Part shown: piece by piece, positions 4,801-56,580 of the stretch
Layout: each line of letters starts with the position of its first letter
Position numbering within the stretch: position 1 is the first letter of the stretch
Assembly: GCF_023913515.1 (NCBI RefSeq)
Contig: NZ_CP099391.1
Coordinates: 1,798,001-1,862,000, forward strand
Length of the DNA stretch: 64,000 nucleotides
Direction of reading: 5' to 3'
Source of the DNA: Natronococcus sp. CG52
GTDB lineage: Archaea; Halobacteriota; Halobacteria; Halobacteriales; Natrialbaceae
Translations under genes and position numbers: made by a program
The notes under the pieces: generated by a model
The model's input: only the letters and a program-made list of their open reading frames with translations
The model's database searches: none
What the model was told of the DNA's origin: nothing

Positions 4801-5045
4801 TTTTACCGAGATCCTCCCTCGTTCGTTTCACTCACTCGGTCGAACCCCGGTAAAACCCGTTGATGCTGTCAGAACGCGTTGCGTTCTGACTGCTAATCAG
4901 AACCGCTTACGGTTCTGATGATGCCAAAAAGCCGCCGTCGCGGGGTTTCACCCCGCTCCGGCGGTGTCGTTCGAAACGGCAGAGCCGTTTCGCGAGTGAG
5001 CAAACGCTTCGCGTTTGCGATCTATGCAAGACCGGAGGTCTTGCA
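4801..5045. repeat. Array of seven closely packed, unrelated perfect hairpins
   Basis: The 455-bp gap between dinB and the MaoC-like gene holds no convincing gene. It contains hairpins at 4801-4855 (ends TTTTACCG/CGGTAAAA), 4868-4890 (GTCAGAACGC, loop GTT), 4896-4919 (ATCAGAACCG, loop CTTA), 4932-4964 (nested CCGCC and GCGGGGT stems), 4972-4992 (CGAAACGGC, loop AGA), 5000-5018 (GCAAACGC, loop TTC) and 5025-5045 (TGCAAGACC, loop GGA). The six from 4868 onward have perfect 8-10 bp stems or nested stems and loops of 3-4 bases, and are only a few bases apart. The hairpin sequences differ, so this is not a CRISPR array. A related CGAAACGGC hairpin lies at 52997-53017. Confidence 0.8.
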
Positions 5046-5628: not shown

Positions 5629-5946
5629 TCAGTTGTACCCACGCCAGCGCTTTCCGCACTCGGTACACTTGAAAAAGCGCGTCGGCGGCTCGTCGGCCGA
5701 GGCCGTCTGCTTGAGCGTGTACCAGGCCTCCTGGTTGCCACACTCGTCGCAGACGACGTCGGTCGCCTTCGGCTTCCCCTCGAAGTTCGCGTCCTCGGTG
5801 GACTCGATCACGTCGTCGTCGATCTGCGATTCGGTCGAGACGAACTCGCTCTCGCTCTCGCGCTCGCTCGAGGCGTCGCAGTTCGTACAGACCATGCGGT
5901 CGCCGTCAGCTTTCATCATCGAGCCGCAGTCGTCGCAAAACTGCAT
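5629..5946 (-). CDS. tfs: Transcription factor S (TFS / TFIIS-like, RNA polymerase cleavage factor)
   Basis: This 105-residue protein has two zinc ribbons: an N-terminal CDDCGSMM...CTNC pair and a C-terminal CDECGNQEAWYTLKQ...CTECGKRW domain. The C-terminal ribbon contains the acidic SADEPPT tip, whose Asp-Glu pair is inserted in the polymerase secondary channel to stimulate transcript cleavage. A very acidic linker joins the two. The start at 5946 is chosen because MQFCDDCG is the conserved beginning; the longer frame runs into repeat A. Repeat A (6037-6161) lies about 90 bp upstream of its start, between it and the divergent histidine kinase gene. Confidence 0.93.
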   Translation of the reverse strand: MQFCDDCGSMMKADGDRMVCTNCDASSERESESEFVSTESQIDDDVIESTEDANFEGKPKATDVVCDECGNQEAWYTLKQTASADEPPTRFFKCTECGKRWRGYN

Positions 5947-6036
5947 GTCCGCACGTACGCACGCACAGCGACAAAACTCCCTCGTTCGTCGAACGCTCGA
6001 ACGTCTCCGTCTTACACCTGAACGTTCCGATCGCGC

Positions 6037-6161
6037 TATAGTACCAACTGAAACGGTTTCCACACCGATCGCACTGTGCGCGGTTCTCGCTTGCTTCGCT
6101 CGCTCCGACCCGCGCTCCCGTCGTGCGATCGGGTGTGCACTGACTTTCAGTGGCTACTATA
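6037..6161 (+). repeat. Palindromic intergenic repeat, copy A (125 bp)
   Basis: The element begins TATAGTA and ends TACTATA. Its left 38 bases match the reverse complement of its right end imperfectly (shared blocks: TATAGTA, CACTGA/AACTGA, CACACC, CGATCGCAC). The centre is a 20-bp segment (6087-6106) flanked by CGCGGTTC and GACCCGCG. Copy B (11423-11547) has the same length and nearly the same arms; reverse-orientation or degenerate copies are at 18717, 56463 and 56970. It has no open frame of interest. It resembles a MITE or a REP-like sequence, but I do not recognise a named family. Confidence 0.85.
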
Positions 6162-6228
6162 CTATAGTTTTCAAATTCCCTCACAGCACCTAAGAAGGGG
6201 GTGAATGCGCAATTTGCGGGGGAAGTTC

Positions 6229-6234
6229 TTATAC
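6229..6234 (+). promoter_or_regulatory. Putative TATA box for the 6259 histidine kinase
   Basis: TTATAC lies about 27 bp before the ATG at 6259, the spacing expected for a leaderless haloarchaeal transcript. Confidence 0.4.
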
Positions 6235-6258
6235 ATCTCGCCACAAACTGTGCGTTAA

Positions 6259-8577
6259 ATGACTTCCTCTCCTTACACGGATGCAGATTCGGCCGTTCAC
6301 GCTCGCATCCGTCAACAGGAGGTCGTTGCCGAACTCGGACAGCAGGCGCTCGAAACGGACGACCTCGACCGGTTGATGCACGACGCTGCGGTCGCGGTCG
6401 CCGAGACGCTCGACGTCGAATACGCGACCGTCCTCGAGTTGTCGCCCGGTGGCGACGAAGTCGTTCTCAGGCACGGTGTCGGCTGGCAGAATGAAGTCGT
6501 CGACGAGGCGACGATCCCGGCGACTCTCGACTCGCGAGTCGGATACACGCTCCACTCGGAGGAGCCGATCATCGTCACCGACTACCGTACCGAGGAGCGG
6601 TTCTCCGACCCCGATCTGCTCATCGAGCACGGTGTCGTCAGCGGAATCAGCGTCGTCATCGGTTCCGCCGAGGAGCCGCGGGGCGTTCTGGGAACGCATT
6701 CGACCGAGGAGCGGGAGTTTACCGAACACGACGCGAATTTCGTTCAAAGCGTCGCAAACGTACTCGCAACGGCGATCGAGAACAAAGCAGCACACAGCCA
6801 ACTGCGAGAGATCCACGAGCGGATCACCAACGGGGTCCTGGCGCTGAACGAAGAGTGGGAATTCACTCACGTCAACCAGCAGGCCGAGGAGAGCCTCGGT
6901 CACGACGCCGACGAGTTACTGGGTGCGAATATTTGGGAACTTTTCCCCTCGCTAGCGGGAACCGAGTTCGAAGAGCACTACCGAGAAGCGATGGACTCCC
7001 AGGAGTCCGTCTCGTTCGAGGGGTATTACCCGCCGTTCGACGCGTGGTTCGAGGAGCACGCGTACCCGTCCGAAACGGGCCTATCGGTGTACTTCCGCGA
7101 CGTCACCGAGCAAAAGCAGATCGAGGCCGAACTCGACGAGATTTACGGACGCATCTCGGACGCCTTCTTCGCGCTCGACGAGGAGTGGCAGTTCACGTAC
7201 CTGAACGAACGCGCTCACGAACTGATCAACCCCGAGGACCGAGCGCTAATCGGCGAGTCCGTCTGGGAAGCGTTTCCCGAGGCGACCGAACGAACGTTCA
7301 AATCCGAGTACGAGGAGGCGATGTCCGAACAGGAGACCGTCTCCTTCGAAGAGTACTATCCCGATCCGCTCAATACGTGGTTCGACGTTCGAGCGTACCC
7401 CTCCGAGACGGGACTCTCAGTCTACTTCCGAGACATCACTGAGCGAAAGGAGCGCGAAGCCAAACTCGAGAAAACGATACGCGAGTTGCGCGAAAGCGAG
7501 GAGCGGTTGCGTCTCGCACTCAAGGCCGGAGAGATGGGCACGTGGGAACTCGACCTGCAAACGGAGGAGTCGCCCGTTCGTTCTCCACACCACGATCGGA
7601 TCTTCGGCTACGAGGAACCGCTCGACGACTGGGACTTCGAGACCTTCCTCGAACACGTCCATCCGGACGATCGCGTGGATGTGGAACGACGGTTCGAGGG
7701 GGCCTTCGAGACGGGCGAGTGGGAATTCGACTGCCGGATCACGCGGGCCGACGGCGAGCAACGGGTGATCGCCGCTCAGGGAGTGTTCTACTACGATGAG
7801 GGCGAGCCGGTACGTGCAGTCGGGGTGGTACAGGACGTGACCGAACAGAAAGCGCACGAACGACAACTCGAGAAGTCCAATCAGCGGCTCGAGCAATTCG
7901 CGTACGCGGCTTCCCACGACCTACAAGAGCCGCTTCGCATGGTATCGAGTTACCTCTCCCTCATCGAACGCCGGTACGGCGGTGAACTCGACGACGACGC
8001 CGAAGAATTCCTCGAGTTCGCCGTCGACGGTGCGGATCGAATGCGCGAAATGGTCGACGGTCTGCTCGAGTATTCGCGAGTCGATACACAGGGTGATCCG
8101 CTCGAACCGGTCGATTTGGCCAGTCTCGTCGAGAACGTACGGGAAGATCTCCAAATGCAGATCGCGGAGAGCGATGCGCAAATCACGACCGAGGATCTTC
8201 CCCCCGTAATGGGTGATGACAGTCAGCTACGCCAGGTTTTCCAAAACCTCATCAGTAACGCGATCGCGTACAGCGGGACCGAGCCGCCTCGGATCCACAT
8301 CGAAGCCGACAGACGGGGACGGAAGTGGATGCTCTCGGTTCGCGACGAGGGTATCGGTATCGATCCCGATAACCAGGATCGCGTCTTCGAGGTGTTCCAG
8401 CGCCTCCACAGCCGCGAGAACCATTCCGGCACCGGGATCGGCCTCGCACTCTGCCAACGGATCGTCGAGCGCCACGATGGACGTATCTGGGTCGACTCCG
8501 AACCGGGCGAGGGATCGACGTTCTCGTTCACGCTTCCGGCAGTCGGAGAGCTCGATTCACTGAATTCGCCGTCGTAA
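6259..8577 (+). CDS. Cytoplasmic multi-PAS sensor histidine kinase
   Basis: The 772-residue protein has no membrane segment. In order it shows a GAF domain (about 20-175), three PAS domains (about 190-295, 295-405, 415-530), a HisKA dimerisation domain with phospho-acceptor His553 in ASHDLQEPLRM, and an HATPase domain with the N box (NLISNAI), the DEGIGID loop and the GTGIGLALC motif. Two of the PAS domains end with a distinctive YPSETGLSVYFRD signature that recurs in other sensors here. The signal is unknown; GAF and PAS domains often bind small molecules, haem or flavin. No response regulator is adjacent, so it is an orphan kinase. Confidence 0.93.
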   Translation: MTSSPYTDADSAVHARIRQQEVVAELGQQALETDDLDRLMHDAAVAVAETLDVEYATVLELSPGGDEVVLRHGVGWQNEVVDEATIPATLDSRVGYTLHSEEPIIVTDYRTEERFSDPDLLIEHGVVSGISVVIGSAEEPRGVLGTHSTEEREFTEHDANFVQSVANVLATAIENKAAHSQLREIHERITNGVLALNEEWEFTHVNQQAEESLGHDADELLGANIWELFPSLAGTEFEEHYREAMDSQESVSFEGYYPPFDAWFEEHAYPSETGLSVYFRDVTEQKQIEAELDEIYGRISDAFFALDEEWQFTYLNERAHELINPEDRALIGESVWEAFPEATERTFKSEYEEAMSEQETVSFEEYYPDPLNTWFDVRAYPSETGLSVYFRDITERKEREAKLEKTIRELRESEERLRLALKAGEMGTWELDLQTEESPVRSPHHDRIFGYEEPLDDWDFETFLEHVHPDDRVDVERRFEGAFETGEWEFDCRITRADGEQRVIAAQGVFYYDEGEPVRAVGVVQDVTEQKAHERQLEKSNQRLEQFAYAASHDLQEPLRMVSSYLSLIERRYGGELDDDAEEFLEFAVDGADRMREMVDGLLEYSRVDTQGDPLEPVDLASLVENVREDLQMQIAESDAQITTEDLPPVMGDDSQLRQVFQNLISNAIAYSGTEPPRIHIEADRRGRKWMLSVRDEGIGIDPDNQDRVFEVFQRLHSRENHSGTGIGLALCQRIVERHDGRIWVDSEPGEGSTFSFTLPAVGELDSLNSPS

Positions 8578-8684
8578 TCGCTCGACGATAGCTGTGGTAG
8601 GTGAGAGCGGCTGCTGAATACGCGCTCTGTTCGCAGACGAGAATATTCTCCTCCTGATCGACGGTTCCCTTCGACGCTTCGTGA

Positions 8685-9668
8685 CTATCGCCCGCTACCG
8701 GAGTCGATCTCCGCGCCGCTCGCCGCCGGCGCCGCGAGCACGACCGACCCCTCGAGTCCCCGACCCTCGAGCGCCTTCCGCGCGGCCGCCCTCGCTTCCG
8801 CGGCGTGGCGTCGATCCGTCAGCCCGTAGACGACGGGCCCCCACGACGACTGGCCGACGCCGGAGAGCACGGGACACCCCTCGAGCGCCTCGACGAGTTC
8901 GCCCGCCGGCGGGCGGAAGACGCCGCCCTGGGCGTCCGCGTACCAGGCGCCGTTCTTGCGGCCGATCTCGGCGACGGCGTCGCCGAACGCCTCGAGCCGG
9001 CCCTCGGCGGCCGCGGGAAGCAGCTTTCGGGTGACGACGCCGGCGATCTCGTCGGCGACGGCGGGGTCGGCTCGTTCGACGACGGCGCGCATGCTCGCGT
9101 CTTCGTTCTCGCCGCTGCGGCCGGGCTCGGCGTCGGGGACGACGACCAGAAACCGCCAATCGTCGGGCAGTCGGTGCCGGGCGACGACCGGCGGCACCGT
9201 CCAGTCCCCCTCCGCCGGCGGCTCAGTCGTGAACCGGTTCGTCGGGTGGCCCGCGTCGACGACGAAGCCGCCATCTTCGAACGTCGCGACGCCGACGCCG
9301 CTGCGTCCGCCCCGCCCCATCGCCGGCGCGTGCGGTCGAACCCGCGGCTCGAGGTCGTGTGCTGCTGCCGTCGCCGCGAACACGGAGAGCGCGATCTGGG
9401 TGCCGCTGCCGAGACCGACGTGGCGGGGAAGCCGCTCCTCGAGGGTCACGGCGACTCCGGAGACGTCGAGCACGTCGACGGCTCGCTCGGCGTACTCGCG
9501 AACCAGCGGATCGTCCGCATCGACGGTCGCTGCCGGCTCGGCGGTGATGGTGACCCGCGGCTCCTCAAGGCCGACCCCGATCCCGCCGTAGAGCCGTCTG
9601 CGGGCGAGCGAGAGGTTCTGAAAGCCGACGTGGATCCGCGCACCGGCGCTGACGGTTGCCGTCGCCAT
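8685..9668 (-). CDS. Beta-ribofuranosylaminobenzene 5'-phosphate synthase-like protein (GHMP-kinase fold)
   Basis: The protein opens VSAGARIHVGFQNL and contains the GHMP-type glycine-rich motif LPRHVGLGSGTQIALSV, then GGVFRPP and GQSSWGPVVYGL, all typical of beta-RFAP synthase. In methanogens this enzyme condenses 4-aminobenzoate (or 4-hydroxybenzoate) with PRPP, with loss of CO2, in methanopterin synthesis. Halophilic archaea use folate-type cofactors, so the role here is unclear. The ATG at 9668 gives 327 residues, close to family length. A 132-bp spacer separates it from the divergent CobW gene. Confidence 0.88.
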   Translation of the reverse strand: MATATVSAGARIHVGFQNLSLARRRLYGGIGVGLEEPRVTITAEPAATVDADDPLVREYAERAVDVLDVSGVAVTLEERLPRHVGLGSGTQIALSVFAATAAAHDLEPRVRPHAPAMGRGGRSGVGVATFEDGGFVVDAGHPTNRFTTEPPAEGDWTVPPVVARHRLPDDWRFLVVVPDAEPGRSGENEDASMRAVVERADPAVADEIAGVVTRKLLPAAAEGRLEAFGDAVAEIGRKNGAWYADAQGGVFRPPAGELVEALEGCPVLSGVGQSSWGPVVYGLTDRRHAAEARAAARKALEGRGLEGSVVLAAPAASGAEIDSGSGR

Positions 9669-9800
9669 GTCCGTGCTAGCGGTACGAACGCCCCCGGGAA
9701 GGGGGTTTCGACGCTGGCAACGCCTGACGGCGATCGCATCCCCGGAAGCGAAACCACCCGCGCCATTTAGTAGCCCGTCCGTCGTGGGTCGTGACATCAC

Positions 9801-10928
9801 ATGTCGAACACCGAAGTCGACCGGATCCCGGTCACCGTCGTTAGTGGGTATCTCGGCGCCGGCAAGACGACGCTCGTCAACCACCTGCTGACGAACGCCG
9901 CGGGTCGGGAGATCGCGGTCATCGTCAACGACATGGGCGAGGTCAACGTCGACGCGGACCTGATCGCCCGCGAGAACGAAGAGGAGGGGATCGTCGATCT
10001 CTCGAACGGCTGTATCTGCTGCCGATTACAGGGGGATCTCCTCGACGAAACCCGACGACTCGCGGAGAGCCGGGAGTTCGAGTACCTGCTCGTCGAGTCC
10101 TCCGGGATCAGCGAGCCGATCCCGGTGGCCCGGGTGTTCACGGAGGGGACCGAGGAGAGCGAGATCGATCCGACGGAGCTGTTCGAGCTGGATACGACGG
10201 TCACCGTCCTCGACACCTACGGCTTCTGGAAGGAGTTCGACGCCGGCGAGTCCCTGCCCGAACACGCCCAGCCGGACGAGCAACGGCCGCTGAGCGAGGT
10301 CCTCGTCGAGAGTATCGAGTTCTGCGACGTCCTCCTGCTGAACAAGACCGATATGATCCCCGACGACGTTCTCGAGGAGATCGAAGCCGTCGTGGATCGG
10401 CTTCAGCCCGGCGCCGAGCGAGTCCGCACGAGCCACTGCGAGGTCGATCCCGACCTCGTGCTGGGAACCGGTCGGTTCGACTTCGAGGAGGCGAAGCGGT
10501 CGCAGGGGTGGAAACGCGAGCTGCGCGGCGACGGTCACGATCACGGTGGACGCGCCCGTTCGCACGCCCACGACCAGCGCGCTGCCGACCTCCACGGCGT
10601 CTCGTCGTTCGTTTTCCGAGCCGACGAGCCGTTTCGTCCCGACGAACTGGGCGACTGGCTCGAGGAGTGGGACGGCTCGATCGTCCGGGCGAAGGGCGTC
10701 TGTCACGTCGCCGGCCGCGACGAGGTGATCGGACTCAGTCAGGCCGGTCCGTCGGTGCAGGCGGGGCCGATCGGCGAGTGGCGGCCGGACGACGACCGAC
10801 GGACGCAGCTGGTGTTTATCGGCCGCGAGATGGACGAAGCGCGGATCCGCGAGGAACTCGAGGCGATGCTCGTCGCGACGGACGAACAGGTCGAAGACCA
10901 GAACTGGGCCGATCCGTTCCCGCTATGA
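9801..10928 (+). CDS. CobW/COG0523-family GTPase, putative metallochaperone
   Basis: The 375-residue protein has Walker A GYLGAGKTT (16-24), the family's metal-binding CICC motif (Cys71, Cys73, Cys74), a guanine-specificity NKTD near residue 178, and a CobW C-terminal domain. A His-rich stretch (GHDHGG...HAHDQ) after the GTPase domain probably also binds zinc or another metal. COG0523 GTPases load metals into enzymes or handle zinc scarcity; the target cannot be assigned, and no cobalamin genes are adjacent. The last 6 bp overlap the convergent small gene at 10923. Confidence 0.92.
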   Translation: MSNTEVDRIPVTVVSGYLGAGKTTLVNHLLTNAAGREIAVIVNDMGEVNVDADLIARENEEEGIVDLSNGCICCRLQGDLLDETRRLAESREFEYLLVESSGISEPIPVARVFTEGTEESEIDPTELFELDTTVTVLDTYGFWKEFDAGESLPEHAQPDEQRPLSEVLVESIEFCDVLLLNKTDMIPDDVLEEIEAVVDRLQPGAERVRTSHCEVDPDLVLGTGRFDFEEAKRSQGWKRELRGDGHDHGGRARSHAHDQRAADLHGVSSFVFRADEPFRPDELGDWLEEWDGSIVRAKGVCHVAGRDEVIGLSQAGPSVQAGPIGEWRPDDDRRTQLVFIGREMDEARIREELEAMLVATDEQVEDQNWADPFPL

Positions 10929-11081
10929 TTCCAGTTCGTCGCTGAGTTCGTCCCAGGATTCGTGGAAGCCGTGGGTCGACTGGGAGGTCGCCGTCGCCGT
11001 AATGGCGTTCTGGTAGACGTCGTCGTACTCGAGCAACTGCCCCCAGCCGTCGGTGAACGAGTAGTTACAGTACTGGCACAC
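10923..11081 (-). CDS. Micro-protein with one CxxC pair, function unknown
   Basis: From a GTG at 11081 the frame encodes 52 residues beginning MCQYCNYSFTDGWGQLL and ending in an acidic tail (ESWDELSDELES). A TATA-like GTATAT precedes the GTG by about 25 bp, suggesting leaderless transcription. There is only a single CxxC pair, so zinc binding would need dimerisation or a partner. Its end overlaps the CobW gene by 6 bp tail to tail. I do not recognise the family; it could also be a non-coding frame. Confidence 0.45.
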   Translation of the reverse strand: MCQYCNYSFTDGWGQLLEYDDVYQNAITATATSQSTHGFHESWDELSDELES

Positions 11082-11236
11082 GGAGCGAGATAACACCGGA
11101 ATCGATATACGCCTTTCTGTCACCGCGTTCCTCGAGCGCTCGTCGCCGAAGGAATCGGCTCGATGGCCGATCCAAAAGTCCATAACGGTGCGCTACCGAG
11201 GGCGCCTACTCGACGGCACTCCGCCGAGAGACGATC

Positions 11237-11404
11237 ATGAACACGAAGCGAAACGGCGCGTACGTTGGCGGTACGACCGACGTAGTCGAACGCTCCTGTG
11301 ACCACTGCGACTGGCACGCAGTCGACGACACGTACCCCGGCCTGATCGAGCGGTATCAGGACCACCTCCGGGAGGCGCACCCGAAAGTCTGGCTTCGACG
11401 CTAA
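11237..11404 (+). CDS. C2H2-type zinc-finger micro-protein (55 aa)
   Basis: The ATG at 11237 opens a 55-codon gene with a C-x2-C ... H-x4-H pattern: SCDHCDW near residues 20-26 and YQDHLREAH near 40-48, so it should fold as a small zinc finger. The codon use is typical of the genome (GC-rich third positions). Two other micro-proteins in the window (20768 and 60607) share the CxxCDW start and H-x4-H end. Haloarchaea carry many such proteins with regulatory roles in the few cases studied; its own role is unknown. It lies alone just upstream of repeat B. Confidence 0.75.
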   Translation: MNTKRNGAYVGGTTDVVERSCDHCDWHAVDDTYPGLIERYQDHLREAHPKVWLRR

Positions 11405-11422
11405 CGAGTGACGTATACGTGG

Positions 11423-11547
11423 TATAGTACCAACTGAAACGGTTTTCACACCGATCGCACTGTCCGCGGTTCGGAGCGAGCGAAGCAAGCGAGAACCGCG
11501 CTCCCGTCGTGCGATCGGGTGTGCACTGACTGTCAGTGGCTACTATA
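11423..11547 (+). repeat. Palindromic intergenic repeat, copy B (125 bp)
   Basis: The arms match copy A almost base for base and the length is identical. The central 20 bp (11473-11492) are the exact reverse complement of the equivalent segment in copy A, and here the flanks are a perfect 8-bp inverted repeat, CGCGGTTC/GAACCGCG. It lies in the 270-bp gap before livH. Confidence 0.85.
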
Positions 11548-11643
11548 TTCCGTTAGCGGTTGAAAACACGCGCCGCCGACAATAACGGCCAAATCAGACT
11601 TATCCAGCCGTAACACGCTATTACCCTCTACTATCGCGTGGAA

Positions 11644-11653
11644 GTATTATTTA
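11644..11653 (+). promoter_or_regulatory. Putative TATA box for livH
   Basis: The AT-rich TATTATTTAC is about 25-30 bp before the ATG at 11675 and would give a leaderless livHMG transcript. Confidence 0.4.
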
Positions 11654-11674
11654 CGCCCCTAGCTAGTCAATACC

Positions 11675-12781
11675 ATGCCTTTCGCAGACTGGCGGCGCTC
11701 CCTCGCGGGGGTGACGATCGAACAGTGGTTTGGGGTGTTGCTCCTCGTGGGGCTGGGAGTACTGCTGCTCGATTTCGCGCGTCGCATCGTCCTCGGCGAC
11801 CTCCGGTTCGGCACGCTTTCGGTGTTTCTCTGGCGAGGGCTCGTCGACGGAGTCATCATCGCGCTCGCCGCCGTCGGACTGTCGATGACGTACGCTATTC
11901 TCAGATTCGCGAACTTCTCGCACGGCGATCTCGTCACTACCGGTGCGTTCCTGGGGTGGACTAGCGCCTACGTCGTCGGGGGACTCGGGATCGCCGAGTT
12001 CGGGTCGACCGTTCTCCTGAACGCCGACAGCGGGACCTCTGCCCGCGAACTCGACATGCACCTGTTCGGGGCACCGCTCGCGATCGTCGCCGGGTTACTC
12101 GTCGCGGCGATCGGAACGATCCTCGTCGCGCTGGCGATCGATCGATTGGTGTACAAGCGCATGCGAAACGCCGGCGGGATCCCACTGTTGATCGCGAGCG
12201 TCGGCATCGCGCTGGCGCTTCGGTACGTCATCGTGTTCTTCTACGGGGAGCAGACGCGCGGTGTGACCAGGAGTTCGCCGACGGTCGAACACGAGTTACT
12301 CTTCTGGACCGATTCGCTGGACGTCCACCAGTCTACCCTCGTCGTGATCGGCGTGGCACTGATGATCGCGCTCCACCTCCTGTTGCAGTACACGAAGCTC
12401 GGAAAGGCCATGCGGGCGATGGCCGACAACCGTGATCTCGCGCTGATCACCGGAATTCCGACTGAGCGAGTGATCCTGATGACCTGGATCATCGGTGCGG
12501 GGCTGACCGGAACGGCTGGCTATCTGATCGTCCTCGAACAGGAGACGCTCAGCTTCAACACGGGATGGTTCCTGCTCCTGTTGATCTTCTCTGCGGTCAT
12601 CCTCGGCGGTATCGGATCGATCTACGGCGCGATCGCCGGCGGGTTGATCATCGGGCTGGCGACCAACGTCTCGCTGGTCTGGATCCCGGGTGACCTGACC
12701 GAGGTTGCCGCGTTTACGCTCATGATCTTGATCCTCCTCTTCAGGCCGTCCGGAATCTTCGGGGGGGTGGAAACGGCGTGA
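11675..12781 (+). CDS. livH: Branched-chain amino-acid ABC transporter permease LivH
   Basis: The 368-residue protein has about eight or nine membrane segments and the LivH-family features: GLVDGVIIALAAVGLSMTYA near the N-terminus, RFANFSHGDLVTTGAF, the cytoplasmic coupling loop GKAMRAMADNRDLALITGI, and the GGIGSIYGAIAGGL end. Together with LivM it forms the membrane channel for leucine/isoleucine/valine or related amides. It is somewhat longer than bacterial LivH because of an N-terminal extension and a loop after the second segment. The livM GTG overlaps its stop by 4 bp, showing co-translation. Confidence 0.93.
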   Translation: MPFADWRRSLAGVTIEQWFGVLLLVGLGVLLLDFARRIVLGDLRFGTLSVFLWRGLVDGVIIALAAVGLSMTYAILRFANFSHGDLVTTGAFLGWTSAYVVGGLGIAEFGSTVLLNADSGTSARELDMHLFGAPLAIVAGLLVAAIGTILVALAIDRLVYKRMRNAGGIPLLIASVGIALALRYVIVFFYGEQTRGVTRSSPTVEHELLFWTDSLDVHQSTLVVIGVALMIALHLLLQYTKLGKAMRAMADNRDLALITGIPTERVILMTWIIGAGLTGTAGYLIVLEQETLSFNTGWFLLLLIFSAVILGGIGSIYGAIAGGLIIGLATNVSLVWIPGDLTEVAAFTLMILILLFRPSGIFGGVETA

Positions 12782-14160
12782 CTCGCGAACCGCCCGTCGC
12801 GCCGGACGGCGGCGAAGCCCCCGAGGAGGAGTTCGTGGGCGGTGCCGATCCCGGCGGCCGTCCCCGCTGGCTCGACGATATCGCCATCATCGCAACGGCC
12901 ACGCTCGTGGTGTACGGTCTCTTCATCGGCCTCGGCCTCGCGGCAGGGCTGGACTTCAACGGCATCGTCAGCACGCTCCAGCAGGTGACGCTGCTTGCGG
13001 CGTCGTTCGCCCTGGTCGCCCTGGCGCTCAACCTCCACTGGGGCTACACGGGGCTGTTCAACATCGGCATCGCCGGCTTTATGGCTGTCGGCGCCTACAC
13101 GATGGCGCTGGTGACGGCCGCACCGGACGCCACGTTCCCCGGACTCGGACTGCCGCTGTGGATCGGCGTTCCGGCGGGACTCGTGGCCGCCGCGCTCGTC
13201 GGCTTCCTGGTTTCGTTGCCGGCGTTGCGCCTCCGCGCCGACTACTTCGCGATCGTCACCCTGGCGTTCGCGGAGGTGATCCGGCTGCTGTACAACTCGA
13301 GCGCGCTCCGGGAGTTCGATCTGCTCGGCGTCGAGTTCGGGACCGGCGGCGGACAGGGAATGTCGTTCCCGAACCTGCGAAACACGATCTCGCGGCGGAT
13401 TATGTACGTCGACGGGGACCAGGGAGCGGGGCCTACCCTCGTCGGCCGGCCGTTCCTGCGGGCCGGGGACGCGCTGGAGCTGAGCCCGTCAGTCGTCGAG
13501 GGGTGGGTGTACACTGCCATCCTGGTGGTGCTGGTCGCGTTCGCGTTCGTGGTCATCACCTGGATTGGCAACTCCCCGTTCGGCAGGGTGTTGAAAGCCA
13601 TCAGGGAGGACGAACTCGCGGCCCAATCGCTCGGCAAGAACACCGATCGCGTGAAGATCAAGGCGTTCGTGGTCGGGTGCGCGTTCATGGGGCTGGCGGG
13701 CATGGTCTGGCAGGGCCGCCGGGGATACATCGACCCAAACCTGTTTCTGCCGATCGTCACGTTCTACATTTTCACCGCGCTGATCATCGGCGGCTCCGGG
13801 TCGAACACCGGGAGCGTCGTCGGGGCACTCCTGTTCGCCGGGTTGCTCTTCGAGGGGCCGCCGTTCGTCCAGCGCATCGTGGACGCCACCTTCGACCTGC
13901 CGCGGCCCCCGACGGTCTACGACGGAGTGGTCGCGCTCGGTGATCTCGACCCGATGCCGCTGCTTGGGTATGCGGTGGGCGAGCTCCCGAACCTCCGGTT
14001 CGTCCTCTTCGGCGTGGTTCTCGTCGTCCTGATGATCTACCGCCCGGACGGGATACTCGGCCACCGGAACGAACCCGCATCGCCGATCGACCTGACGAAA
14101 GAGCGACCGCCGAGCGAACGCGATACTCCCTCGCCGCAGGGAGGTGAGCCGAATGAGTGA
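12778..14160 (+). CDS. livM: Branched-chain amino-acid ABC transporter permease LivM
   Basis: The GTG at 12778 overlaps the livH stop. The 460-residue product has about ten membrane segments, the LivM-family LHWGYTGLFNIGIAGFMAVGAY motif, and the coupling-loop sequence AIREDELAAQSLGKNTDRVKIKAF. Extra residues occur in the extracytoplasmic part (about 175-240) and in the hydrophilic C-terminal tail compared with bacterial LivM. It is the second half of the transport channel. It overlaps livG by 8 bp, and GGAGGTGA just before that overlap is a good ribosome-binding site for livG. Confidence 0.93.
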   Translation: MTREPPVAPDGGEAPEEEFVGGADPGGRPRWLDDIAIIATATLVVYGLFIGLGLAAGLDFNGIVSTLQQVTLLAASFALVALALNLHWGYTGLFNIGIAGFMAVGAYTMALVTAAPDATFPGLGLPLWIGVPAGLVAAALVGFLVSLPALRLRADYFAIVTLAFAEVIRLLYNSSALREFDLLGVEFGTGGGQGMSFPNLRNTISRRIMYVDGDQGAGPTLVGRPFLRAGDALELSPSVVEGWVYTAILVVLVAFAFVVITWIGNSPFGRVLKAIREDELAAQSLGKNTDRVKIKAFVVGCAFMGLAGMVWQGRRGYIDPNLFLPIVTFYIFTALIIGGSGSNTGSVVGALLFAGLLFEGPPFVQRIVDATFDLPRPPTVYDGVVALGDLDPMPLLGYAVGELPNLRFVLFGVVLVVLMIYRPDGILGHRNEPASPIDLTKERPPSERDTPSPQGGEPNE

Positions 14161-14959
14161 ATCGGCCGTCGTCGACGGGGAGCGAGCGGAGACGGTCGTG
14201 CTCCGCGTTTCGAACCTCGAGAAGCGATTCGGTGGGATCGTGGCAGTCGACGGCGCCGGTTTCGAGGTCAAGCGGGGGACGATAACGGGACTTATCGGTC
14301 CGAACGGGGCCGGCAAGTCGACGGTGTTCAACCTGATCACCGGCGTCTACAAACTGGATTCCGGTCGGGTGATCTTCGAGGGCGAGGACGTAACTGGATT
14401 GCAACCACACCAGCTGGTGGATCGCGGGCTGGTACGAACCTTCCAGATCAGCCGGATGCTCAGCGGGATGACCGTGCTCGAGAACATGCTACTGGCGTTC
14501 GACGACCAGCTCGGCGAGTCCCTCTGGTGCACGGTCGTGCCCAGCGTTCGTCGATCGATCGTCGAACAGGAGCGAGAGTTGCTCGAGCGCGCCTGGGAGA
14601 CGCTCGAACTGTTCGAGATCGATCACCTGGCCCACGAGGACGCGTCGAACCTCTCGGGCGGGCAGCGAAAGCTCCTCGAACTCGCCCGGGCGCTCCTGAC
14701 GGACCCGGAGATGTTGTTACTCGACGAGCCGATGGCCGGCGTCAACCCCACGCTCGAGAAGAAACTCCTCGAGCGCATCCACGAACTCAGATCGCAGGGA
14801 TACACCTTTCTCCTCGTCGAGCACGACATGGACGTCATCATGAACAACTGCGAGACGGTGATCGTCATGCATCAGGGTCGGGTGCTCTCGCGTGGCTCTC
14901 CCCAAGAGATACAGGAGGACGAACGCGTCATCGATGCCTATCTCGGGGGCGAGATCTGA
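14153..14959 (+). CDS. livG: Branched-chain amino-acid ABC transporter ATP-binding protein LivG
   Basis: This is a standard ABC ATPase: Walker A GPNGAGKST, a Q-loop region, signature LSGGQRKLLELARALL, Walker B MLLLDEP and the switch histidine in LLVEHDMD. The LivG-type MAGVNP motif after Walker B separates it from LivF. I chose the ATG at 14153 because the GGAGGTGA upstream has proper spacing. It powers import through LivHM. A second ATPase, LivF, normally follows directly, but here the next gene is convergent livK, so LivG may act as homodimer or pair with a LivF encoded elsewhere. Confidence 0.93.
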   Translation: MSESAVVDGERAETVVLRVSNLEKRFGGIVAVDGAGFEVKRGTITGLIGPNGAGKSTVFNLITGVYKLDSGRVIFEGEDVTGLQPHQLVDRGLVRTFQISRMLSGMTVLENMLLAFDDQLGESLWCTVVPSVRRSIVEQERELLERAWETLELFEIDHLAHEDASNLSGGQRKLLELARALLTDPEMLLLDEPMAGVNPTLEKKLLERIHELRSQGYTFLLVEHDMDVIMNNCETVIVMHQGRVLSRGSPQEIQEDERVIDAYLGGEI

Positions 14960-15013
14960 TACTCGTCGCCGAGAGTTTCGATGCCTCGCTCGAAAAACGG
15001 TTGGCCGGCTGCC

Positions 15014-16252
15014 CTATTCCTCCTCGAAGTCGATCTGCTCGACCGCTTCGAGTTCGAAGTCACCGAACTCGAAGACATCGTACGTGACGGCTTGCATGTC
15101 GCCGTTGTCGTCGAACTCGACGGTACTCGAGGCACCCTGGTAGGAGATCTCCTCTCCCGCGGCGGCGAGTTCGATTCCCTCGGCGAGGTTCGACGGGCCG
15201 ACCGTCTCGCCGTTCGGGTTCGCGACGGCCCGCATCTCGTCACGGACGGCGGGACCGTCGTTCGAACCCGCACGAGCGTTCGCCAGGATCATGACGGCGC
15301 TCGCGTCGTAGCCGTGGGCGGTGAACACCCCCGGCCCTCTCCCGAACTCGTTCTCGTACAGTTCGGTGAACGTGTCGACGTCCGGACCGTCGGCGGCCGG
15401 AGCGGTCCCCAGAACGTTGTTCATCGGGTTGTCGACGTTCACCGGGAGGTCGTCCTCGATCAGACCGTCGGTGACGACGACGGGCAGTTCGGGGTCGAAG
15501 CCCGCGTAGAAGTCCCGGAAGATCTGGACGCCGCTGACGGGGAACGCGATCACGAGCAGGAAATCGGGCTCGTCCGCGAGCGCGCTCTCAAGGATGGAGG
15601 TGTACGACGGCTGCTCCGGTTCGAACGCCTCGGCAGCCGTAACCGTGCCACCGAGCTCCTCGAAGCTCTCCTCGAACACGCCCGCGAGCGCCTGTCCGTA
15701 GGCATCGTTCAGGGCGAGCACCGCCGCACTCTCCCACTCACGGTCCTCGTACGCGAGTTCTGCGATGACTGGACCTTGTAATGCGTCGCTCGGTGCGGTA
15801 CGGAAAACGAAGTCGTCGTCGGCGAGGTCCGTGATATCCGGGCTCGTGCTCGCGGGCGAACACATGACGACCTGATTCGGGACCGCGACCTCCTGGGCGA
15901 CTGGTATCGTTACGTCGGACGCCGCCGCGCCGGTGAACATCGGGAACCCGGCGTCGACGAGCGACTGTGCGGCACTGATCCCTGCCTCGGAAAGCGTCTG
16001 AGAATCTTCGCGCTGGACTTGGATTTCGAACTCACTTCCCTCGCCTGCGAGCTGGATAGCGGGGAGTTCGGCCCCGTCCGCGATCGGCCCTCCCAGTTCG
16101 CCCAAATCTCCGGATTCCGGCTGCAGGATCCCTAGCATGATCTCACGGTCCTGCACGCTGAAACTTCGATCGCCGCTGAGAGTACCCGCGAAGGACAATG
16201 CTCCTACGCCACCGATCCCAGTTAGCACACTGCGCCGGCTGATTCGAGCCAT
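15014..16252 (-). CDS. Branched-chain amino-acid ABC transporter substrate-binding protein (LivK/LivJ-like)
   Basis: The N-terminus (MARISRRSVLTGIGGVGAL) is a twin-arginine signal peptide, so the protein is exported folded; there is no lipobox cysteine. The mature part is a Peripla_BP_6 domain: GILQPESGDLGELG..., AAASDVTIPVAQEV..., PSDALQGPVIAELA. Substrates could be branched-chain amino acids, amides or urea. The gene converges on livG with a 54-bp gap instead of leading the operon, so it is regulated separately, although its proximity makes partnership with LivHMG likely. Confidence 0.9.
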   Translation of the reverse strand: MARISRRSVLTGIGGVGALSFAGTLSGDRSFSVQDREIMLGILQPESGDLGELGGPIADGAELPAIQLAGEGSEFEIQVQREDSQTLSEAGISAAQSLVDAGFPMFTGAAASDVTIPVAQEVAVPNQVVMCSPASTSPDITDLADDDFVFRTAPSDALQGPVIAELAYEDREWESAAVLALNDAYGQALAGVFEESFEELGGTVTAAEAFEPEQPSYTSILESALADEPDFLLVIAFPVSGVQIFRDFYAGFDPELPVVVTDGLIEDDLPVNVDNPMNNVLGTAPAADGPDVDTFTELYENEFGRGPGVFTAHGYDASAVMILANARAGSNDGPAVRDEMRAVANPNGETVGPSNLAEGIELAAAGEEISYQGASSTVEFDDNGDMQAVTYDVFEFGDFELEAVEQIDFEEE

Positions 16253-16625
16253 GGTAGTTGTAGGGAGTAATAAGCAAAAGAGTTTATCTAGGGCAGTGTT
16301 AGAGCTCTAATGTTGGTGATTTTGGTTAATTTATTGAATTTCATAGTAATACTCCGATACCACTGTTAACCCTCGTTCCGGGCCCGTTCAGGTGCTGGCC
16401 GATGTCATCCGATTCCGCCCATTTATCCGTGTTTCCCGGGTACAACGGTAACGAGAACCGACTATAACGTTAATTACCTTCTAGTGGGCTGGGAGATTCA
16501 GTTACCAAACTCGAACCGCGGTCAGGTTCGCCGCGGTACGGGTCCCGCGTAGTGCCACAATCCGCTAATATACTACCGACTGTTAACGACGCGTCTCTAC
16601 TCAAAGAAATTTGAGGACTTCGGGA
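16253..16625. other. AT-rich intergenic region upstream of the substrate-binding protein gene
   Basis: This 373-bp stretch has no plausible gene. It is clearly AT-richer than its surroundings, particularly 16260-16350. A TATA-like TTTATCTA (plus-strand view, 16282-16289) sits about 30 bp from the livK start on the minus strand. The rest holds nothing I can identify. Confidence 0.6.
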
Positions 16626-56462: not shown

Positions 56463-56580
56463 TACAGTAGCCACTGAAAGTCAGTGTACAGCCGACCGAC
56501 GTCACCTCGAGGTCGACACCACCGACCTCGCCCACGACGGGTGTGCGATCGGTGTGTGACCCGTTCCAGTTGTTACGATA
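56463..56580 (-). repeat. Palindromic intergenic repeat, copy D (reverse orientation)
   Basis: On the minus strand the arms read CGTAACAACTGGAACGGG, CACCGATCGCACAC at one side and GTACACTGACTTTCAGTGGC at the other, as in copies A and B. The centre is different: CGAGGTCG and CGACCTCG form their own hairpin. The rest of the 376-bp gap (56345-56720) holds only the RNase J hairpin and no gene. Confidence 0.75.

Follow-up and report, generated by a model that had tools for sequence, protein, structure and literature searches.

Rare but apparently repeated inversion of hairpin loops in a MITE-like transposable element of haloarchaea

The window we analysed is a stretch of 64,000 nucleotides from Natronococcus sp. 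CG52 (contig NZ_CP099391.1, positions 1,798,001 to 1,862,000), a Natronococcus-like haloarchaeon whose genome comprises 4.74 Mb on three contigs. It holds two 125-bp copies of a repeated element on the forward strand, copy A at 6037-6161 and copy B (L001) at 11423-11547. Copy A lies upstream of a gene for a PAS/GAF histidine kinase, and copy B lies upstream of a gene for a branched-chain amino acid permease. As read from the sequence, TATA-like boxes near 6233 and 11648 are located outside A and B, so that the loops discussed below appear to lie outside the core promoters and a function as a switch is not apparent. Judged by a neighbouring CobW-like GTPase, the nearest named relative is N. pandeyae (88%). 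Synteny with this and other relatives ends beside A and B (window positions 5989-8682 and 11410-16619); those relatives lack, or have other sequence in place of, copy A with the sensor kinase and copy B with the branched-chain amino acid transport region. A third, more diverged family member on the reverse strand (56463-56580) has a different centre, which is closer to those of L060 and L072 than to the 20-nt hairpin of A and B.

The inner loop of A, TCGCTTGCTTCGCTCGCTCC at 6087-6106 on the forward strand, is present in B as its exact reverse complement at 11473-11492, as a sequence-only reading of this DNA had described. Up to three mismatches, A and B are the sole matches to this loop in the window, where shuffled sequences lead one to expect 0.02. 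When both loops are read in the same direction none of the 20 positions is equal, which excludes that the loop of B arose by substitution. Outside the loop, 101 of 105 positions are identical in the same orientation, bearing out the earlier claim that the flanks had not turned. The loop is enclosed by an 8-bp inverted repeat, which is perfect in B (CGCGGTTC at 11465-11472 and GAACCGCG at 11493-11500) and carries a single mismatch in A (CGCGGTTC at 6079-6086 and GACCCGCG at 6107-6114), again as had been noted. The inverted identity between A and B is 35/36 with the stem included and falls to 36/40 ten bases further out; this fading past the stem places the breakpoints of the flip inside the 8-bp arms. 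An outer stem, CCGATCGCAC at 6065-6074 and GTGCGATCGG at 6123-6132 in A, and at 11451-11460 and 11509-11518 in B, bounds a 48-nt interior that is itself inverted in other copies.

Both copies belong to a non-coding, multicopy, MITE-like transposable element with terminal inverted repeats, built as nested imperfect hairpins. Its basic form is 84 bp long and has the 10-bp stem CCGATCGCAC/GTGCGATCGG, which closes a loop of 7 nt; the 125-bp form has an extra hairpin within the region of the 7-nt loop, consisting of the stem CGCGGTTC/GAACCGCG and the 20-nt loop. Folded as a single strand, the complete element is much more stable than shuffled sequence. The genome carries about 70 copies (67 right ends at three or fewer mismatches, and 68 paired copies in a looser scan of the fetched loci). 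The element was matched in about half of 40 sampled relatives, nearly all from the same family (Natrialbaceae); exact-pattern copies were present in 38 of 125 Natrialbaceae genomes, and the element is also found on plasmids of several haloarchaeal families. There was no match in the phage collection, no Rfam family across window positions 5900-11700, and no paper naming this haloarchaeal repeat in the literature searched. In the sister genome G001, the copies L230, L244, L251, L252, L253, L256, and L258 have far longer interiors, bringing the element to as much as 348 bp. They consist of CGCGGTTC/GAACCGCG hairpin modules that recur along the interior, which looks as though successive template switches had extended the centre.

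With its ends drawn as C-TA-[TAGTA...TACTA]-TA-G, the element apparently inserts with a duplication of TA at CTAG, and the empty site C-TA-G is kept in two relatives (L254 compared with L123, and L433 compared with L226). When the ends were drawn at TATAGTA instead, target duplications were no more frequent than in shuffles. A TA duplication at CTAG is the target reported for IS630 in papers cited in PMC2170065. In the search for an autonomous partner, genomes G000 and G001 contained IS630-type genes without matching ends and G099 contained none; as the search yielded no transposase gene flanked by such ends, we call the element IS630-like only. Genome G099, in which no DDE_3 (IS630) match was detected, holds about 20 near-identical 84-bp copies from a recent burst (L419-L438), with an altered terminal repeat, GCTCTTGAA, that matches on both arms.

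Inversions are observed at three nested levels: in a loop of 7 nt closed by the 10-bp stem, in the 20-nt loop closed by the 8-bp stem, and in the interior of 48 nt as a whole. The stems are unrelated in sequence, and flips occur at both CCGATCGCAC and CGCGGTTC stems. In this genome, nine of the 84-bp copies have a 7-nt loop resembling AGCCGTC and 14 have one resembling GACGGCT, and both orientations are seen in several genera. The 39 classifiable 125-bp copies of this genome and G001 comprise 28 in which both the interior and the inner loop have the common orientation, as in A (outer+/inner+), six in which only the inner loop is inverted, as in B (outer+/inner-), and five with the entire 48-nt interior inverted (outer-); additional copies with divergent ends are inner- (L007) and outer- (L013). 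Once turned to a common direction, one 48-nt interior is identical to the letter in all three states: outer+/inner+ (L058, L079), outer+/inner- (L001, L002), and outer- (L091). Another interior subfamily, marked by a GACCC stem, is likewise found in both outer orientations (L012 and L014 versus L017 and L089). In G001, L242 is identical to L235, L243, and L245 at all 77 of 77 arm positions and has the 7-nt loop in the opposite orientation. The inverted inner loops are of differing subtype (C-type in L005, T-type in L001), and an inner-inverted copy is also present on a Natrinema plasmid (L268). All six inner-inverted copies have a perfect stem, compared with 16 of the 28 others; this excess agrees with a dependence on the stem, but is borderline and no proof (p 0.055, with copies that are not independent). 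The common inner state is also that of G001; the derived state is thus most likely the one in B.

The sequence-only reading had considered ongoing switching, against which it would have counted orientations fixed by descent and an absence of mixed reads. In 26 comparisons of the same insertion site between strains or species the orientation never differed, so that by that reading's own standard ongoing switching finds no support. Seventeen of these comparisons involve plasmids of Haloarculaceae and Halostella/Salinibaculum and say little about slow rates, since many are between nearly identical strains; the other nine compare genomes within a further Natrialbaceae genus, one that includes Natrinema. 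In G099, from the same genus, one of about 20 near-identical copies (L446) is flipped, and the recent burst in that genome, whose roughly 20 copies have a damaged stem, includes no flipped copy. The stability of the fixed sites, the flipped L446, and the lack of flips in the burst together indicate that flips are rare at any one site, yet were apparently repeated over the history of the family. The mixed orientations probably result from rare, repeated flips in the history of a multicopy transposon. For A and B themselves no same-site copies were present in the relatives searched, N. pandeyae among them, because synteny is interrupted at each locus; the one site shared between G001 and this genome (L063 and L235) is occupied by different elements. 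The phylogenies required four parsimony changes of inner state for six minority copies, and five of outer state for five (AU test p 0.117 and 0.166), but, limited as they are by 105-125 columns, they are no proof of independent flips. The independence of the flips is suggested mainly by the differing stems, loop subtypes, and genera, with the trees suggestive and not significant.

We consider it probable that the loops are flipped by template switching at the hairpin stems, and that B, or the copy from which it derives, carries a single inner inversion. During replication or repair, the growing strand would change template at a hairpin stem, copy the loop off the complementary strand, and then switch back, leaving a loop that is inverted but of unchanged length, and arms that may have become identical. 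As the family spread, repeated flips of this kind would have affected the loops of 7 and 20 nt as well as the 48-nt interior; the inner inversion may have arisen in B or in the source copy from which B was transposed. Homogenised arms are observed directly: L450 has a left arm that is nearly the reverse complement of the right one (28/30), and the right end of L350 has acquired the left-end sequence. The inversion of spacers together with arm homogenisation has been ascribed to template switching by DNA polymerase at inverted repeats in yeast (PMC8604942), and the same two signatures have been ascribed to template switching in rRNA and microRNA hairpins (PMC8794818). Because loop inversion and arm homogenisation are seen here at any stem and length, they fit template switching and disfavour a site-specific invertase. 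Of the mechanisms that the sequence-only reading had offered, a flip across the short inverted repeats stands, and template switching is the best supported by the unrelated stems, the three loop sizes, and the homogenised arms; a site-specific recombinase is disfavoured by unrelated stems and 7-nt loops. We infer that the flips are neutral.

An alternative explanation is ectopic gene conversion. The stems are inverted repeats, so that two copies could align in opposite registers and one could acquire the loop of the other in inverted form, and a few original flips would then have been shuffled through the family. The roughly 70 similar copies per genome would provide partners, and the orientations are scattered over the arm subfamilies (20 changes of outer state on the tree of the arms versus 22.7 when shuffled). 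However, the homology offered by a stem is just 8-10 bp, 7-nt loops are flipped between arms that are unaltered at all 77 positions, the inverted loops belong to distinct subtypes, and some original flips would still be required. We regard this explanation as unlikely. It is also rather doubtful that loop flipping is coupled to mobilisation, for example via a hairpin or single-strand intermediate, although such coupling would be compatible with stable fixed sites alongside mixed orientations between copies. If this were the case, then loop orientation would be a record of how each copy was transposed in the past, and the nested hairpins would be part of how the element moves.

The loop might also be inverted when an extruded cruciform or hairpin is cut and rejoined by repair nucleases or Holliday-junction enzymes. 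This process would likewise act on any stem, and the element forms strong single-strand folds; alone, however, it does not account for the homogenised arms of L450 and L350, and we think it quite improbable as the explanation. Exchange between copies and cruciform cutting possibly contribute. Very improbable is a phase-variable switch flipped by a site-specific recombinase. The exact inversion between inverted repeats, and the position of both A and B upstream of genes, would be expected of such a switch, but unrelated stems around segments of 7, 20, and 48 nt offer no single conserved pair of recognition sites, no same-site comparison revealed a difference, and the putative TATA boxes lie outside the elements. 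Ordinary recombinase synapsis also needs more than 7 nt. Three further possibilities are ruled out: independent point mutations, by loops that share none of 20 positions; an assembly artefact, by the recurrence of the inverted state in other genomes and in about seven copies of this one; and a hairpin inserted in either orientation, by the junctions TGTC and CTCCCGTC, which are the same in both states.

The inversion is real, rare, and apparently recurrent, and represents a new archaeal, transposon-borne case of a known mutational process. Invertons are invertible promoters driven by recombinases. They too consist of a segment inverted between inverted repeats; in contrast, the segments described here have no visible core promoter, are enclosed by several stems of unrelated sequence, include loops as short as 7 nt, and show no orientation differences at fixed sites. 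The small inversions in plastid hairpin loops, for example those of 4-24 bp in Lauraceae plastomes, are similar in that a loop between short perfect arms is inverted at constant length and recurrently on trees (PMC6824564), but here the host is an archaeon, the stems are nested in a multicopy transposable element, and the inverted segment reaches 48 nt. The yeast, rRNA, and microRNA cases have loop inversion and arm homogenisation in common with ours (PMC8604942; PMC8794818); their loops are mostly 2-8 nt long and lie in genes, whereas ours are 7-48 nt long, between 8-10-bp arms, in non-coding mobile DNA. With IS630/Tc1-mariner-type MITEs and the small mobile repeats of Haloquadratum (PMC3119063) the element shares its shortness, lack of coding capacity, terminal inverted repeats, and many copies, and with IS630 the TA duplication at CTAG; it differs in its nested, variable hairpin centre, and the search for an IS sharing its ends came up empty.

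Each clade holds a large number of almost identical hairpins whose loop orientation can be read off, and together they amount to a natural counter of template-switch errors in archaea; in the literature searched we found no earlier report of such errors from this domain. Nested flips in repeats of this kind also mislead alignments and phylogenies, as one event mimics up to 20 substitutions. Two arrangements of copies in genome G000 deserve mention. On contig C2, copies at 4894-5016 and 362154-362276, and also at 11726 and 368986, are equally spaced, suggesting that a segment of several kilobases was duplicated; the loop orientation is unchanged between the copies. On contig C1 (596341-597802), L003 and L004 are near-identical inner-inverted copies in opposite orientation, about 1.2 kb apart, that may bracket a composite unit.
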